Assembly: GCA_026706385.1 (NCBI GenBank)
Contig: JAPOYV010000042.1
Location: 1-51,319, forward strand
DNA length: 51,319 nucleotides
Source of the DNA: Gammaproteobacteria bacterium
Lineage (GTDB): Bacteria > Pseudomonadota > Gammaproteobacteria > Pseudomonadales > Azotimanducaceae
Direction: 5' to 3'
Under the pieces are notes generated by a model, which saw only the letters and a program-made list of their open reading frames with translations, searched no databases and was not told the DNA's origin. This document shows, one piece after another, positions 298 to 6,632 of this stretch. How positions within the stretch are numbered: position 1 is the stretch's first letter; each line of letters begins with the position of its first letter. The position numbers and the translations under genes are program-made.

Positions 298-2640
298 ATG
301 CCAAGCCAGCCCGCCACCATCACCAAGTCCGTCGTCTGCCATAGCTGCGACTGCTTCTGCCCCCTCGCCGCCAAGGTAGACACCGCCACCGGGCGGATAA
401 CCAAAGTGACCACGCGCGACCATCCCTTCTTCAAGGACGTGATCTGCATGAAGGGCGCCTACGCGCCGAAGTCCTTCGCGCACCCGGACCGGCTCATGCA
501 GCCGCAGAAACGGATCGGCGAGCGTGGCGAGGGAAGGTGGTCCCCGGTGTCCTGGGACGAAGCCCTGGACGACATCGCCGAACGCCTGCGCGCGGTCATG
601 GACCGCTACGGTCCGAAAGCACTCGCAATCGCCGGGAGCAACGCCAACATCGGGCTCGACAACGGCCTGACCCGCCGCTTCATGAACCTCGTCGGCACCC
701 CGAACTTCATCAGCGGCATCGCCTACTGCATGGGCAACACCGCCGCGGTCAGCCGCATGGTCTACGGCTGGTATCCGCGCGGCGACCTGCTCAACACCCA
801 GTGCATCGTGCTTTTCGGCCACGACCCCAGGCGGCACAGTTGGACCATCGAATACAAGACGATCCGCACCGCGCAGGCGGGCGGCGCCAAGCTCATCGTG
901 CTCGATCCGCGCAAGAGCGAGAACGCCGAGGCCGCCGACATCTGGCTGCCGCTGCGCGCCGGCACCGACGCCGCGATGACCTTCGGCTGGCTGAACGTCA
1001 TCATCGAAGAGGGGCTGTACGACGAAGACTTCGTGCGCGACTGGACGGTCGGCTTCGACGCCTTCGCCGAACGCGTTCGCGAGTATCCCCTCGACCGCGT
1101 GGCCGACATCACCGGCGTCGATGCCGAACTGATCCAGCGCGCAGCACGCATGTACGCCACCGCCAAGCCCGCCGCGATCCCGTGGTCGCCGATCACCGAT
1201 CAGCAGGTTTCGAGCACATCGGCGATCCGGTTGCAGTGCGCCTTGCGGGCGATCACCGGCAACCTCGACATCAAGGGCGGGGAGATGTTCGCGGGCTTCA
1301 ATCCGAGCGTGCGCTCCGACACCGAGGTCGAGATGCACCATCGGCTGCCGCTAGAGCAGCAGGCCAAGCAGCTCGGGGCCGACGAGTTCCCCGTCTTCAC
1401 CTATCGCGGCATGGAACCGCTCGGCGACGCGACCGAACGCGTCTGGGGGCATCGCTACGCCAACCTCGTCGGCGGCTGCTACATGGCCAATCCAGCGGCC
1501 GTGTTCAAGGCCATGGCGGACGGCAAGCCCTATCCCGTGAAGGCGTTCTTCGCGCTCGCCAACAACACGCTGATGTCGTTCGCCAACACCGACCGCATCT
1601 ACAAGGCGCTTCTGAACCAGGACCTGATCGTCGCCTACGAGCACATGCTGACGCCGACGGCACAACTGGCCGATTACGTCCTGCCCGGCGATGCCTGGCT
1701 GGAACGGCCGGGCATGATGGCCGGGATCAGCGACCGGGCCATGGACGCGCCCGGCGAGTGCAAGAGCATCGTCTACTTCTGGTGCGAACTGGCACGGCGC
1801 TTAGGCTTGGGCGACCACTTCCCGTGGCGTACCGAGGAGGAACTCCTCGACTACCGTCTGGAACCGGCGGGGACGACCTGGGCCGAGGTGGTCGCCAAGG
1901 GCTCGCTGCCGAGGGCCGACAACCCGGAGCGCAAGTACGAGAAGGCCGGTTTCGCAACGCCGTCGGGCAAGGTGGAACTGCACTCCTCCGTGCTCGAAGG
2001 TTTCGGCTTCGACGCCCTGCCCTACTACCGGGAGCCGCCGGGGTCCGATGCGCGCTTTCCGCTCAAGATGTTCATTGGGCTCCCCGACGACGAGTACTAC
2101 AGGACCGGCCACCGCCACATCCCGGAGATGCGCAAGCGCGCCCAGGATCCCGCTTTCTACGTCAGCGAAGCGGATCGCGAAGCCTTGGGCCTCCAGGAAG
2201 GCGACTGGGCCCGCGTCGCCACCGCGACCGGCGCCATGGTCGGGCGGGCCTTCGTCCGGACCGGGATGCCTGCCGGCCTGGTACGGGTGCCGCATGGGTG
2301 GTGGAAGCCGGAGTCAAGGCGCGGGTTGCCGCACCTGTCGGGGGCGTGGGCGTTCTCGGATGCGCAGATCACGCCCGACGACGACCCCGACTTCATCGAC
2401 CGCGAGCAGGGGATTCCGCACATGAAAGGCGTGCCGTGCTCTCTTGCGAAGCTGACGGCCACCGAAGTTCAGGAGCTTGAAACGGTCTACGGTGCGACGA
2501 TGCCGATGCCGAACGCACTCGAGAAGCACGCGAAGAAGCGCTCCGCGCGCAATCCCGACTTCATGCACGACGTGGAGTTCGGCGAGGACGTGGAGTTCGA
2601 GGCCGTGGAACTCTCGCTCTACGGACGCAGTTCGGCCTGA
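298..2640 (+). CDS. Molybdopterin-dependent oxidoreductase (DMSO reductase family), single-chain
   Basis: The 780-residue protein has the three expected parts: an N-terminal 4Fe-4S domain, a large molybdopterin-binding domain and a C-terminal dinucleotide-binding beta domain (about 640-750). The cluster ligands are visible as C14-x2-C17-x3-C21 and C50. C144 in AYCMGNT is in a plausible place for the molybdenum ligand, which would make it a Cys-ligated enzyme rather than Sec- or Ser-ligated. There is no twin-arginine signal, so it should act in the cytoplasm. No iron-sulfur or membrane-anchor subunit gene lies beside it, so it probably works alone or with a soluble partner. The substrate cannot be told from sequence. 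No clear Shine-Dalgarno precedes the ATG, but the Fe-S motif begins right after it. Its 3' end faces the PhyH-like gene, 7 nt away. Confidence 0.85.
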   Translation: MPSQPATITKSVVCHSCDCFCPLAAKVDTATGRITKVTTRDHPFFKDVICMKGAYAPKSFAHPDRLMQPQKRIGERGEGRWSPVSWDEALDDIAERLRAVMDRYGPKALAIAGSNANIGLDNGLTRRFMNLVGTPNFISGIAYCMGNTAAVSRMVYGWYPRGDLLNTQCIVLFGHDPRRHSWTIEYKTIRTAQAGGAKLIVLDPRKSENAEAADIWLPLRAGTDAAMTFGWLNVIIEEGLYDEDFVRDWTVGFDAFAERVREYPLDRVADITGVDAELIQRAARMYATAKPAAIPWSPITDQQVSSTSAIRLQCALRAITGNLDIKGGEMFAGFNPSVRSDTEVEMHHRLPLEQQAKQLGADEFPVFTYRGMEPLGDATERVWGHRYANLVGGCYMANPAAVFKAMADGKPYPVKAFFALANNTLMSFANTDRIYKALLNQDLIVAYEHMLTPTAQLADYVLPGDAWLERPGMMAGISDRAMDAPGECKSIVYFWCELARRLGLGDHFPWRTEEELLDYRLEPAGTTWAEVVAKGSLPRADNPERKYEKAGFATPSGKVELHSSVLEGFGFDALPYYREPPGSDARFPLKMFIGLPDDEYYRTGHRHIPEMRKRAQDPAFYVSEADREALGLQEGDWARVATATGAMVGRAFVRTGMPAGLVRVPHGWWKPESRRGLPHLSGAWAFSDAQITPDDDPDFIDREQGIPHMKGVPCSLAKLTATEVQELETVYGATMPMPNALEKHAKKRSARNPDFMHDVEFGEDVEFEAVELSLYGRSSA

Positions 2641-2647
2641 CGGACGT

Positions 2648-3490
2648 TTACGCCGGCCGTGGGGGTATCTCGTGCCCGGTCGGCCGCGGGTGGTTGGCCC
2701 AGTGGCCACTGCCGTCGACGCCCCGGCAAACAACCGAGTGCGCGTTCCAGCCGTTGAAGGCGCGCACGTCGGACGACAGGTAGCGCAGCGCCAGCCCGCA
2801 CCGCCGCGTGTCCGAGTCGTTGGGCTCGGAGCCGTGCAGGATCCAATCGCTGTGCAGCGAGATCTGGCCGGCCTGCAATTCCAGTGACACCGGCGCGTCC
2901 CCGTGCGCGGTCGGGTCGCTCACGGTCTGGTTGAGCACGTTCTTCTCCGTCGGCGCCGAGTCGACGAACGGAACTTGGGCCCGGCGATGCGAGCGCGGGA
3001 TGACACGCATTGCCCCGTTGGCCGGCGTCGAGTCGTCGATGGCGAGCCATATCGACACGACCTTGCTCGGCGACAAGGGCCAGTACGAGGCATCCTGGTG
3101 CCAACTCACGCGCTTGCCGTCGCCCGGCAGCTTGCAGAAGAAGTGGCTGTGTCGGCAGATCACCGTGTCACCCAAGAGATCGCTCGCGAAGGCGACGAGC
3201 CTGGGATGGGTCACCAGGTCCCAGACCACCCGGCACGTCTTGTGCCAATTGGTCATCTCGTAGCTGTCCCAACCGGCGTCCAACGCCCTCGCCAGGAGAT
3301 CGTCGAAGTCCGCACGGATCGCGCCGATCTCGTCGGCGTCGAAGACGTCAAACGGAAACAGGAATCCTTGGGCGTTGTAGCGGTCGATGTCGGCGCGCGT
3401 GAGTACCTTCGGCTCGTCCACGCCAAGCGGGAAGAAGCGAAGGTCCCGATCCAGATCGGGATAGGCGTCTGTTCGCGCGGTCGCTGTCAA
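2648..3490 (-). CDS. Phytanoyl-CoA dioxygenase (PhyH) family Fe(II)/2-oxoglutarate oxygenase
   Basis: A 280-residue protein with the double-stranded beta-helix oxygenase signature: H131-x-D133 in SWHQDASYW, the distal histidine H219 in ILHGSEPN, and R230 downstream as a likely 2-oxoglutarate contact. The family hydroxylates branched fatty acyl-CoAs or small molecules; the substrate here is unknown. The start is taken as TTG, whose last two bases overlap the TGA stop of the upstream peroxiredoxin frame (TTGA), an arrangement typical of translational coupling. No good ATG exists before the conserved region. It therefore looks like the second gene of a two-gene operon with the UGA-containing peroxiredoxin, so oxygenase and peroxide-defence functions would be co-expressed. 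Confidence 0.82.
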   Translation of the reverse strand: MTATARTDAYPDLDRDLRFFPLGVDEPKVLTRADIDRYNAQGFLFPFDVFDADEIGAIRADFDDLLARALDAGWDSYEMTNWHKTCRVVWDLVTHPRLVAFASDLLGDTVICRHSHFFCKLPGDGKRVSWHQDASYWPLSPSKVVSIWLAIDDSTPANGAMRVIPRSHRRAQVPFVDSAPTEKNVLNQTVSDPTAHGDAPVSLELQAGQISLHSDWILHGSEPNDSDTRRCGLALRYLSSDVRAFNGWNAHSVVCRGVDGSGHWANHPRPTGHEIPPRPA

Positions 3491-3945
3491 CCTTGGAGGG
3501 CAGCCAGCCGAGCCAGCGCGTCGTCCGGATCCGGCAACGTCGAGGTGTGCATTTCGCTGTGCCGGACCACACCGTCGGGATCGATGATGAACAGGGTCCG
3601 CATCGCCATGCCCACCTGATCGTTGAAGATGCCCAAGGACTGGGACACCGCCCCATGCGGCCAGAAGTCGCCCAGCAGGGGATGGCGGATCCCGCCCATG
3701 GCGGTCGCCCAGGATTTCAACGAGAACGTGGAGTCGCAGCTCAGGCCGAGGAGCTTGGCGCCAGCATCGTCAAACTGCTTCAACGCACGGTTGAAGGTCG
3801 AGGTCTGGTTGCTTCAGCCGCCGGTGAACGCGAACGGGAAGGAGTGCAGCACGACCCAGTTGCCCTTGAGCTCGTCGAGGGAGATCGACTTGCCGTCGTG
3901 GCTTCTGAGCGTGAACGAAGGAACGGAATCGCCAGCGCCCAGCAT
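3487..3945 (-). CDS. AhpE-like peroxiredoxin, predicted selenoprotein (in-frame UGA at codon 44)
   Basis: From an ATG at 3945, preceded by GAGG six bases upstream, the frame reads MLGAGDSVPSFTLRSHDG, then LHSFPFAFTGG, then UGA (3814-3816), then SNQTSTFNRALKQFDDAGAK, and stays open to 3487, giving 152 residues. Peroxiredoxins carry the peroxidatic residue in P-x-x-x-T-x-x-C; here P37, T41 and the UGA codon at 44 fit that spacing exactly, so the UGA replaces the catalytic cysteine. After it the protein matches AhpE-type enzymes closely: FWPHGAVSQSLGIFNDQ, the arginine in AMRTLFIIDPDG, and a total length like mycobacterial AhpE. A second cysteine, C70, is present. Both sides of the UGA are well conserved and undamaged, which favours selenocysteine over a pseudogene. 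The product would reduce peroxides in the cytoplasm. A point mutation from TGC or TGT cannot be excluded from one sequence. Confidence 0.8.
3778..3796 (-). promoter_or_regulatory. Candidate bacterial SECIS hairpin of the peroxiredoxin mRNA
   Basis: On the minus-strand mRNA, 17 nt after the in-frame UGA, CUUCAAC pairs perfectly with GUUGAAG around the loop CGUGC. A 7-bp stem with a 5-nt apical loop that starts 24 nt after the UGA and has G among its first two bases agrees with the published description of bacterial SECIS elements, the SelB-binding hairpins lying inside the coding region just after the Sec codon. The hairpin is within the open frame and encodes ordinary residues (TFNRALK). Binding by SelB is inferred. 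Confidence 0.6.
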
Positions 3946-3998: not shown

Positions 3999-4082
3999 GG
4001 TGCGCGCGGACCGGTAGGTCCGCCGCGTCCACGTCCGCATCCCATTGGCGCGATAGGCATGCGGGCCGGGCGGCCCACGCAC
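3999..4082 (+). repeat. Dispersed palindromic intergenic repeat, copy 1
   Basis: This stretch holds GCGGACC-GGTA-GGTCCGC (4006-4023), a perfect 7-bp stem, and about 30 bp further a second imperfect palindrome built on GGGCC/GGCCC. Nearly the same order of sequence returns, inverted, at 46958-47040. It starts 7 nt beyond the stop codon of the transketolase-like gene. Read in that gene's direction, the order of the two palindromes is the same as in copy 2 relative to its own upstream gene. It resembles a REP-type element or a 3'-end processing/termination structure. It does not appear to code. Confidence 0.6.
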
Positions 4083-4088
4083 CCCCTC

Positions 4089-6632
4089 TTACAGCGCCGC
4101 GAGCGCCTCCCTCTGACGACTAAGACGCGAATCCCGCTCCGCCGCAAAACGCTCGACGCCGGCGCGGACCGACGCCTCGTCGAGGTGCGCCTCGGCGATC
4201 ACGTCCGGTTCCAGGCCGCCCGTCAGCCAGCGGTCGTGCCAATCGGACACCAGCGAATACTCGGTGGTCAGGGGGCCCACGTCGCGCACCGGCCACATGC
4301 GCCGCGTGCCCGTGGTGACGATCATCATGTCCTGCTTCGCTTCGGCCGGAAGCACGCTGTCGCGGTAGGCCTGCGGTTGGCGGTCGAAGAGCTCCTCGCT
4401 GATGGCGGCGACCACCTTGACGTTGATACCTGCGGCTTCGAGGTCCGGCAGCGCGCTCACCAGGTTGACCGTGGAGCTCGACCCTTGCGCGACGACGTAG
4501 CCGTGCCGCGGCTGGTCGGGCGCGAAGTCGCGAATGACGTAGAAGCCCTTGGCGGCGGCCTTGAGGTCGTCGTCGGCGAACGTCGAGCGGTCGGCCACCG
4601 GGAAGTCCGGCCGCGCGACCTCGATGACGATGACGCCCACCAGCGGATCGCGCGCCGCGATTTCCGCAGCGGCGAAGTACCCGGGGGCGACGTCGTTGTA
4701 GTCCCAGAAGTTGAGCACGATCGCCTGGCCGCGCGGGAACAGCTTCCACACCTGCGGCGCGAAGATGCCGAAGTGCGTGCGGGCATCGGCCGCCGTCTCC
4801 GGACCGGAGTGCCCGGCCAGGATGTTGAGGACGCCGAGGCGGAAAGGGCTGTCCTGGTTCTGCTGGCTCCAGACGCGTGCCGGCAGGTACATGAACGGCG
4901 TGAAGGCGCCGTAGCTGCCGGACATCGCCCACACGCCGCTGTGCACGGCCGGGTCGAGCGACGCGCTCTGCCCGACGAGGCCCACGGCCGAGGACGCGTT
5001 GCCGGCTTCCTGGATCGCTGCTTTGAAGCGCGTCCCCGATTGGTTGTCGCGCGGGTCGTAGTGGCCGGTCAACGAACCCTTCTCGACGTTGATCGAACCC
5101 GACAGGTCCGCCGACAGGGTGATGAACCGGTTGTCGGTGACGTGGTTCATCCACTTGACCACTTCGGAGATGGCCCGCCGCGTGCCGGCGACTTCACCCG
5201 GTTCCTTGAAGAGTTCGATACCGACGGTCTGCTCGGTGCCGTCCATGCGCGTGCTGACGGTCTGCGGCAGCACGGGGAGCGCGTCCACCCGCAGCCGGTC
5301 GTCGTGGAACGGATCCTTGCTGTTGTCGACGCGCAGGCTCACGTCGTCGCGGACGCCGTCGCCGATGGCCACCAGTCGGTCGGCGAGCCACGCCCCGAGA
5401 CCGTCCTGGTCGAGAACCGACATGACCACGTCGATGTTGGTCTTGAACTGCCGCAACCGTTCAGCCTCGTCGCCGACGGCACCATCGCGAATGCCCTCGA
5501 AGGTGACGCCGAAGCGGTTCTCGAAGGTCTCGGCCAGGGCGACGAAGTACGGCACGTTCATCTTCATGTCGTACGGGTGGCTGTGGTAGCTCACGACCTG
5601 CTCGCCGAATCCGGGAATGGTCCCGTTCTCGGCGGCCGGCCACCAGCCCTTCACGGTCCGGCCGACCACGATCATGGGCCGCCGGTCGTCCGGATCCCAG
5701 TCCTCCATGGTCTTGAGCACGCCGAGGACCTGGTCGTAGTCGTTGCCGTTGTCGAGCGAGAGCACGTTCCAGCCGTACGACGCCCATTGATCGGCGATCC
5801 GGTACCCGTCCAGCGTGTCGGGCACCACCCCGCCGATCAACGCGTCGTCGATCCCGGCGTTGTTGAACGACAGCATGATGCGCAGCCGCTTGCCGACGCG
5901 CTGGGCAACGGCTTGCGTCTTGAACTCCTGCGAATGCCCGGAGGTCATGGCGAACTCGCCTTCGAGCGCCACGATCTTCGGCGAGTCGCCGGCACCCATG
6001 AAGTCCCAGAAGGCCGCCTTCCCTGCGGCGGTGGCGATGCCGATCCCCGACGGCCCGCCGTTGACGTCGTTGATCAGGTCGGTGGTCTCCGAGTGTCCCG
6101 CGAGCGAGCGGATGCCGCGCAGCCGGGCTTGCGCGAAGAGCGGGTCGTTCGCCAAGCCGTTGTCCTCGAGCAACGACTCCAGGACGCCCGCCCCGCGGCG
6201 AAAACCGAGGCAATCGATGGGCAGCATCGCGATCTCCGGATCGACGTGGAAGCGCGCGTCGCCCGTGGTCGCATGCCGGCGCGCCATGGCCTCGCCCATG
6301 ACCATCCACAGCGCGTAGAGCGTCGGGATGTTGTGGCCGCCCGCGAGCAGGAGCTTGTCGCCGAACGGATGCTTCGGGCGGCGGTAGTCGTAGCTCAGAC
6401 CGCCGTTCTCGGGACCCGCCAGGTGCAAGGCGATGTTGTAGGGCGTATACGCCAACGGCCCGCCGAAGTGACCGGTCTGCTGGTAGTTGCCGAGCAACGT
6501 CAAGGTCATGGCAGTCAAAAAGCCCACGTCCTCGAAGCGTTGGCGGTCGTAGTCGGGAACGTCGACCTGCGTCTCAATGGCTTCGCCGCGCTTGCCGGCG
6601 GTGCGAACTAGGACTGATCCGTTGGCGCCCAT
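4089..6632 (-). CDS. Transketolase-like thiamine-diphosphate enzyme (pyruvate dehydrogenase E1-like)
   Basis: The ATG at 6632 lies ten bases after an AGGAGAG Shine-Dalgarno and gives 847 residues, longer than a normal transketolase (about 660) and near the size of homodimeric PDH E1. The N-terminal third has AGGHNIPTLYALWM and NGGPSGIGIATAAGKA, matching the cofactor-binding part of transketolase. A ThDP motif follows (EGEFAMTSGHSQEF ... SFNNAGID). The middle third is pyrimidine-domain-like (SGSYGAFTPFMYLPARVW). The end is a transketolase C-domain (GINVKVVAAISEELFDRQ). No E2 or E3 gene is nearby, so a classical PDH complex is not supported; the reaction could be a ketol transfer or a phosphoketolase-like step on an unknown substrate. 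The 178-bp gap to the divergent CMD-family gene carries a perfect inverted repeat. Confidence 0.75.
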   Translation of the reverse strand: MGANGSVLVRTAGKRGEAIETQVDVPDYDRQRFEDVGFLTAMTLTLLGNYQQTGHFGGPLAYTPYNIALHLAGPENGGLSYDYRRPKHPFGDKLLLAGGHNIPTLYALWMVMGEAMARRHATTGDARFHVDPEIAMLPIDCLGFRRGAGVLESLLEDNGLANDPLFAQARLRGIRSLAGHSETTDLINDVNGGPSGIGIATAAGKAAFWDFMGAGDSPKIVALEGEFAMTSGHSQEFKTQAVAQRVGKRLRIMLSFNNAGIDDALIGGVVPDTLDGYRIADQWASYGWNVLSLDNGNDYDQVLGVLKTMEDWDPDDRRPMIVVGRTVKGWWPAAENGTIPGFGEQVVSYHSHPYDMKMNVPYFVALAETFENRFGVTFEGIRDGAVGDEAERLRQFKTNIDVVMSVLDQDGLGAWLADRLVAIGDGVRDDVSLRVDNSKDPFHDDRLRVDALPVLPQTVSTRMDGTEQTVGIELFKEPGEVAGTRRAISEVVKWMNHVTDNRFITLSADLSGSINVEKGSLTGHYDPRDNQSGTRFKAAIQEAGNASSAVGLVGQSASLDPAVHSGVWAMSGSYGAFTPFMYLPARVWSQQNQDSPFRLGVLNILAGHSGPETAADARTHFGIFAPQVWKLFPRGQAIVLNFWDYNDVAPGYFAAAEIAARDPLVGVIVIEVARPDFPVADRSTFADDDLKAAAKGFYVIRDFAPDQPRHGYVVAQGSSSTVNLVSALPDLEAAGINVKVVAAISEELFDRQPQAYRDSVLPAEAKQDMMIVTTGTRRMWPVRDVGPLTTEYSLVSDWHDRWLTGGLEPDVIAEAHLDEASVRAGVERFAAERDSRLSRQREALAAL

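Follow-up and report, generated by a model that had tools for sequence, protein, structure and literature searches.

We found that a gene on the minus strand of a 51,319-nucleotide contig from a gammaproteobacterium of the Azotimanducaceae (JAPOYV010000042.1, assembly GCA_026706385.1; the whole contig is hereafter called the window) very probably encodes an AhpE-type peroxiredoxin (Prx), predicted from its sequence to use selenocysteine (Sec) as the peroxidatic residue. Translation of the frame (3945-3487) revealed a single internal stop, a TGA at codon 44 (3816-3814), which occupies the peroxidatic position of the motif P37-x3-T41-x2-U44; P37 and T41 were present in all 35 sequences compared, that is, the window and 34 related loci. 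The AhpC-TSA profile PF00578 matched residues 5-129, spanning the TGA, with 113.5 bits against a cut-off of 26, and the UGA aligned with the Cys of the FTGIC motif of AhpE. An earlier note, made from the letters of the window alone, had described a 152-residue frame open on both sides of one UGA lying exactly at the peroxidatic position, as was confirmed here, and had foreseen that standard gene calling would truncate the protein: mechanical calling of open reading frames (ORFs) without read-through indeed returned only a 98-residue piece (3783-3487) initiated at a TTG.

The related loci came from a scan of one genome per species (84,980 species) with two peptide patterns which favour close relatives and lie beside codon 44, not on it, so that the scan itself did not select for TGA. 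TGA was nevertheless found at codon 44 in 34 of 34 loci, all from separate records, and Cys in none (0/34). A search of 200 genomes of the same bacterial family (E 1e-15), a set overlapping with the 34 records, gave 30 matches, 26 of them with one TGA: 22 at ≥60% identity, counting the window's own copy, and 4 at 37-40%. The remaining four were three Cys paralogs (34% identity) and a C-terminal fragment. All 22 matches at ≥60% identity that reached codon 44 carried TGA. At the order level (390 genomes, E 1e-19), besides the window, we recovered two orthologs already in the set, one C-terminal fragment and a single match at 31%. Among plasmid records there were 250 matches, none reaching 60% identity; the 6 that were read were Cys forms, the nearest being an AhpE-like protein of Nonomuraea (43.7% by tblastn, 41% by alignment). 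No relative was found in a scan of viral_contigs. The earlier note had suggested looking for Cys in homologs: no Cys ortholog was found among the 34 loci or in the family, order, class, phylum and plasmid scans, and among the relatives examined Cys was confined to those with about 44% identity or below. The conservation of TGA at codon 44 is far beyond chance. According to the record titles, the loci belong to Gammaproteobacteria/Pseudomonadales, Alpha- and Betaproteobacteria, one 'Deltaproteobacteria' bin and two Chloroflexi bins. These titles are labels of metagenome-assembled genomes (MAGs), of which 'Bordetella parapertussis' is doubtful, and the 'Deltaproteobacteria' bin (L046) is nearly identical to the gammaproteobacterial L047. 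Two irregular copies were also noted: L074 (about 4001-4434) and L037 represent this ortholog in one MAG, where its frame is broken some 65 residues past the UGA, and L041 (G021 contig C45) is an extra match confined to the C-terminal region (residues 71-151, 62% identity), in a genome where a complete Sec copy is present as well.

Downstream of the UGA we identified a putative Sec insertion sequence (SECIS) that resembles the bacterial model. The hairpin CTTCAAC-CGTGC-GTTGAAG starts 17 bases past the UGA, and 16 bases of its 17-base core (TTCAAC-CGTGC-GTTGAA) were invariant in 35/35 sequences; the fifth loop base was C in 33 and G in 2, and the outermost stem pair was standard in 31 of the 35. 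The core pattern occurred once in the entire genome, after the codon 44 UGA. Codons -15 to +74 were then aligned by distance from the UGA, and degenerate columns were called conserved when at least 30 of the 35 sequences had the same residue. Among the 41 such columns, the five from +7 to +11 used one codon each (5/5), and none of the remaining 36 did so; the chance of such clustering under random placement is 1.3e-6, a figure that ignores kinship. These five codons include Leu TTG and Arg CGT, in a window with a G+C content of 67%, and other Leu or Arg columns used four to six codons. In PMC13188914 the bacterial SECIS (bSECIS) model is given as an apical loop of 3-9 nt on a stem of 4-16 bp, with G at one or both of the first two loop positions, 16-37 nt from UGA to loop and a minimum free energy of at most -7.5 kcal/mol. 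The window hairpin has a 5-nt loop, a 7-bp stem and a spacing of 24 nt, all within these ranges; its loop, CGUGC, has G second, followed by U, and lacks the more usual N1-N2 pairing. Its minimum free energy was -9.0 kcal/mol over the 51 nt from the UGA and -6.7 for the 26-nt hairpin, the model text giving no length for its threshold.

Neither an Rfam family nor a tRNA (ARAGORN) was detected within the window; the Sec machinery lies elsewhere in the genome, an assembly of 5.1 Mb in 134 contigs that is 98% complete. A selA-selB-selC cluster was found side by side on one contig, with selA at 536.7 bits (cut-off 267.9), selB at 374.2 (cut-off 242.25) and a four-base selA/selB overlap; the tRNA-Sec(UCA) scored 68.8 bits (gathering 47) and was called tRNA-SeC, anticodon tca, by ARAGORN. 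On another contig, selD (250 bits, cut-off 125; L022 3660-1402, G000 contig C3) lies C-terminally in a frame of 752 residues, fused to an N-terminal pyridine-nucleotide oxidoreductase domain. Its stretch RCGGCGAKLG, which we take to be the active-site position, has Cys, and the frame lacks an in-frame UGA. The fusion resembles the Ndh-SelD fusions named in PMC2398784. The earlier note had named absence of selA, selB, selC and selD as a finding that would speak against a selenoprotein; selA, selB, tRNA-Sec and selD were all present.

These data bear on whether UGA might be reassigned genome-wide to another amino acid, or suppressed by a near-cognate tRNA. Codes with TGA as a sense codon do exist; however, the Prx gene and the adjoining molybdopterin oxidoreductase gene (298-2640) both terminate with TGA, the UGA aligns with the catalytic Cys of AhpE, the genome holds Sec machinery including tRNA-Sec, and the hairpin core stands only after this UGA, making reassignment or suppression highly improbable. 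Among the 33 of 35 genes with a visible end, the terminator was TGA in 17 (one in the frameshifted L074), TAG in 13 and TAA in 3. An ordinary Cys-Prx gene altered by a sequencing error or a recent nonsense mutation (a young pseudogene) would likewise show one in-frame stop and be intact otherwise. We give this explanation practically no credence, as opposed to it stand the identical TGA in all 34 separate records, the failure to find a Cys ortholog and purifying selection on the downstream frame: synonymous exceeded nonsynonymous divergence (pS > pN) on both sides of the TGA in 4/4 comparisons (L042, L043, L044 and L045; for L044, pS 0.83 and pN 0.25 upstream, pS 0.84 and pN 0.17 downstream), and the frame past the TGA has therefore been kept as protein. 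The last alternative is that translation yields mostly the 98-residue piece initiated at the internal TTG, or a truncated product, and that Sec insertion is minor. It is extremely unlikely, because that piece would have neither the active site nor the opening strands of the fold, the 43 codons preceding the TGA are themselves conserved with pS > pN in the same four comparisons, and the TTG is the Leu codon +11, conserved because it lies inside the hairpin stem.

Several observations weigh against a Sec-encoding gene with a functional SECIS, or add little to it. The gene is patchy, being present in 12 of 16 genomes of the genus (own included), and no further ortholog appeared in the 368 other genomes of the class and 397 of the phylum sampled (E 1e-16), where every other match had ≤39% identity and no internal stop; those fetched and read were Cys forms, mostly with what we take to be AhpC-like motifs. 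Co-occurrence with selA (E 1e-60) is weak evidence: selA accompanied 25 of the 26 TGA-Prx genomes, the exception (G1228) being 71% complete, and adds little because its background is so high (166 of the 200 family genomes). The 51 nt from the UGA folded no better than shuffled sequences (z -0.65, 43/200 as good), the 26-nt hairpin was only modestly distinct from them (z -2.06, 9/200 as good), and no covariation can be demonstrated within the ortholog set because the inner stem is invariant. Even so, the prediction of a Sec-containing AhpE-type Prx appears very probable to us.

A tree was built from 54 rows. Those with the motif TGGU, 33 in number, formed a single clade, all Sec (support 100/97), inside which no Cys form was found. 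The clade was separate both from another group of Sec-peroxiredoxins, with the motif TPNU, and from L002, which grouped with the Cys forms L040 and L133. Around the TGGU clade, gain or loss of Sec appears to have occurred repeatedly (3 changes counted, 2 forced); because the tree warns of long-branch joins, the count of Cys/Sec switches in the deeper groups is not firm. L002 (2076-1480, G000 contig C88) is a second Sec-peroxiredoxin of the same genome, with FTGGU and an N-terminal signal-like stretch; it is 30% identical to the window Prx, its relatives in the family (L040, L132 and L133) have Cys at the same place (TGGC), and no hairpin of the window type was found after its UGA. The TPNU proteins (L038, L129, L130 and L131), from the same bacterial family, are 37-40% identical to the window protein. 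Their genes have TGA at the same codon, followed at a similar distance by a CTTCA.../...TGAAG hairpin that falls in a different reading frame from that of the window. The extended stem has C-G in two of the four and T-A in the other two, which with four sequences is only suggestive.

The earlier note had called the sequence downstream of the UGA AhpE-like, and both alignment and structure comparison agreed: the nearest protein in sequence and predicted structure (modelled as a monomer) was mycobacterial AhpE, with 38-39% identity and 1.4 A over 151 residues. The 1-Cys peroxiredoxin AhpE of Mycobacterium tuberculosis (PDB 1xxu, 4x0x and 5id2) has the same fold, with FTGxC where the window protein has FTGxU, that is, Cys in place of the predicted Sec. 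Both have Phe before the active-site Pro and Arg at 116, and AhpE PDB titles name F37H and R116A mutants. AhpE is reportedly reduced by mycothiol/mycoredoxin. Mycothiol is described as an actinobacterial thiol, and PMC6155587 places AhpE in Actinomycetales, in contrast to the Proteobacteria and Chloroflexi in the record titles of the Sec clade. The AhpE type is defined in PMC12697902 by a Phe/Tyr replacing the active-site His of the Prx6 type. On our own reading this is the residue preceding the Pro, which was F in 25 and Y in 10 of the 35 sequences, in agreement with that definition. As a 1-Cys type it needs no resolving Cys, and PMC6155587 allows 2-Cys members too; in our set the commonest other Cys was at residue 70 (12/35, with Val in 21 and Ala in 2) and any other position had Cys in ≤3/35. 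Since no resolving Cys is conserved, the predicted enzyme is probably a 1-Sec peroxidase.

From the frame, UGA, hairpin, machinery, conservation and predicted fold, all read from sequence, we infer a route for Sec incorporation and catalysis. SelB carrying Sec-tRNA-Sec would recognise the hairpin 3' of the UGA and Sec would be inserted at codon 44; the selenolate would then attack ROOH to give a selenenic acid near T41 and R116, following the 1-Cys peroxiredoxin route with Se for S. Substrates may be H2O2, organic hydroperoxides or peroxynitrite. With no conserved resolving Cys, the selenenic acid would presumably be reduced by an external thiol, such as glutathione/glutaredoxin or thioredoxin.

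The window protein matched 12 NCBIfam models and reached the cut-off of none (0/12). Membership was rejected both for NF040737, which we take to stand for PrxU of Eubacterium acidaminophilum (68.2 bits against a cut-off of 270, with a longer profile of 233 positions; another subfamily), and for the thiol peroxidase Prx-SUH, NF045827 (35.5 against 298). PrxU, cited as ref. 83 in PMC13188914, shares Sec, PxxxTxxU and PF00578 with the window protein. The earlier note was right that Sec peroxiredoxins are known in some bacteria: in the passages available, the PxxxTxxU class is established (PMC13188914, PMC1088965 and PMC2398784), a TxxU Prx is listed as experimentally verified (PMC13188914), and Sec-Prx (TxxU) are common in the Sargasso Sea and Global Ocean Sampling (GOS) surveys, with 43 and 253 sequences (PMC1088965, PMC2398784). 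The survey sequences, from marine microbes, share TxxU and PF00578/COG1225; these passages do not divide them by subfamily and some may belong to the window clade. No description of a Sec-containing AhpE was found in the limited literature searched. Since the class was already established, the novelty is lower than the earlier note had rated it, and what is new is the apparently Sec-only AhpE-like clade with its rigid putative SECIS.

The PhyH-family gene begins at or directly past the Prx stop, and also scored, below cut-off, to chlorinating-enzyme and ectoine-hydroxylase NCBIfam models. The apparent operon proposed in the earlier note holds as adjacency in the window but not as a family-wide partnership, which was rejected: only 5 of the 34 loci had PhyH beside the Prx, each of these five from a gammaproteobacterial bin, with Prx identities of 68-93%; two of the 34 (L051 and L070) hold no downstream DNA in which a neighbour could show. 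The 130 neighbouring ORFs that were chosen by length formed no cluster of more than 5 members. PhyH is a lineage-specific neighbour, and we saw no reason to link its function to that of the Prx.

Table 1. Positions in the window of the predicted selenoprotein gene, its elements and its neighbours
Feature	Position	Strand	Remarks
AhpE-like selenoprotein peroxiredoxin gene (predicted)	3487..3945	minus	152 codons and a TGA stop; begins with ATG at 3945
In-frame UGA, codon 44, predicted peroxidatic selenocysteine	3814..3816	minus	TGA in 34/34 related loci
Putative bacterial SECIS hairpin	3778..3796	minus	stem CTTCAAC/GTTGAAG; apical loop CGTGC at 3789-3785
TGA serving as true terminator of the peroxiredoxin gene	3487..3489	minus	from translation of the frame
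PhyH-family gene	2648..3490	minus	PF05721, 118.5 bits; possible TTG start overlaps the Prx stop
Molybdopterin oxidoreductase gene	298-2640		neighbour; ends in TGA

Standard gene calling drops the active site of this enzyme and no NCBIfam cut-off is reached, so the AhpE-like Sec family is probably annotated in databases as a truncated protein. The prediction would bring Sec into the AhpE-type peroxidases of uncultured Gammaproteobacteria, and the Sec AhpE-like enzyme together with Cys AhpE would make a pair for asking why a peroxidase keeps Sec. The hairpin would offer a natural putative SECIS in which conservation alone shows the essential bases, its 17-base core being fixed while nearby synonymous sites vary freely. 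We consider the odds evenly balanced that this is a Sec-obligate AhpE-type family spread over Proteobacteria and Chloroflexi, with no surviving Cys form, in which an unusually rigid SECIS froze five codons and hence the peptide Phe-Asn-Arg-Ala-Leu; if so, the RNA signal, and not the enzyme, would dictate part of the protein.
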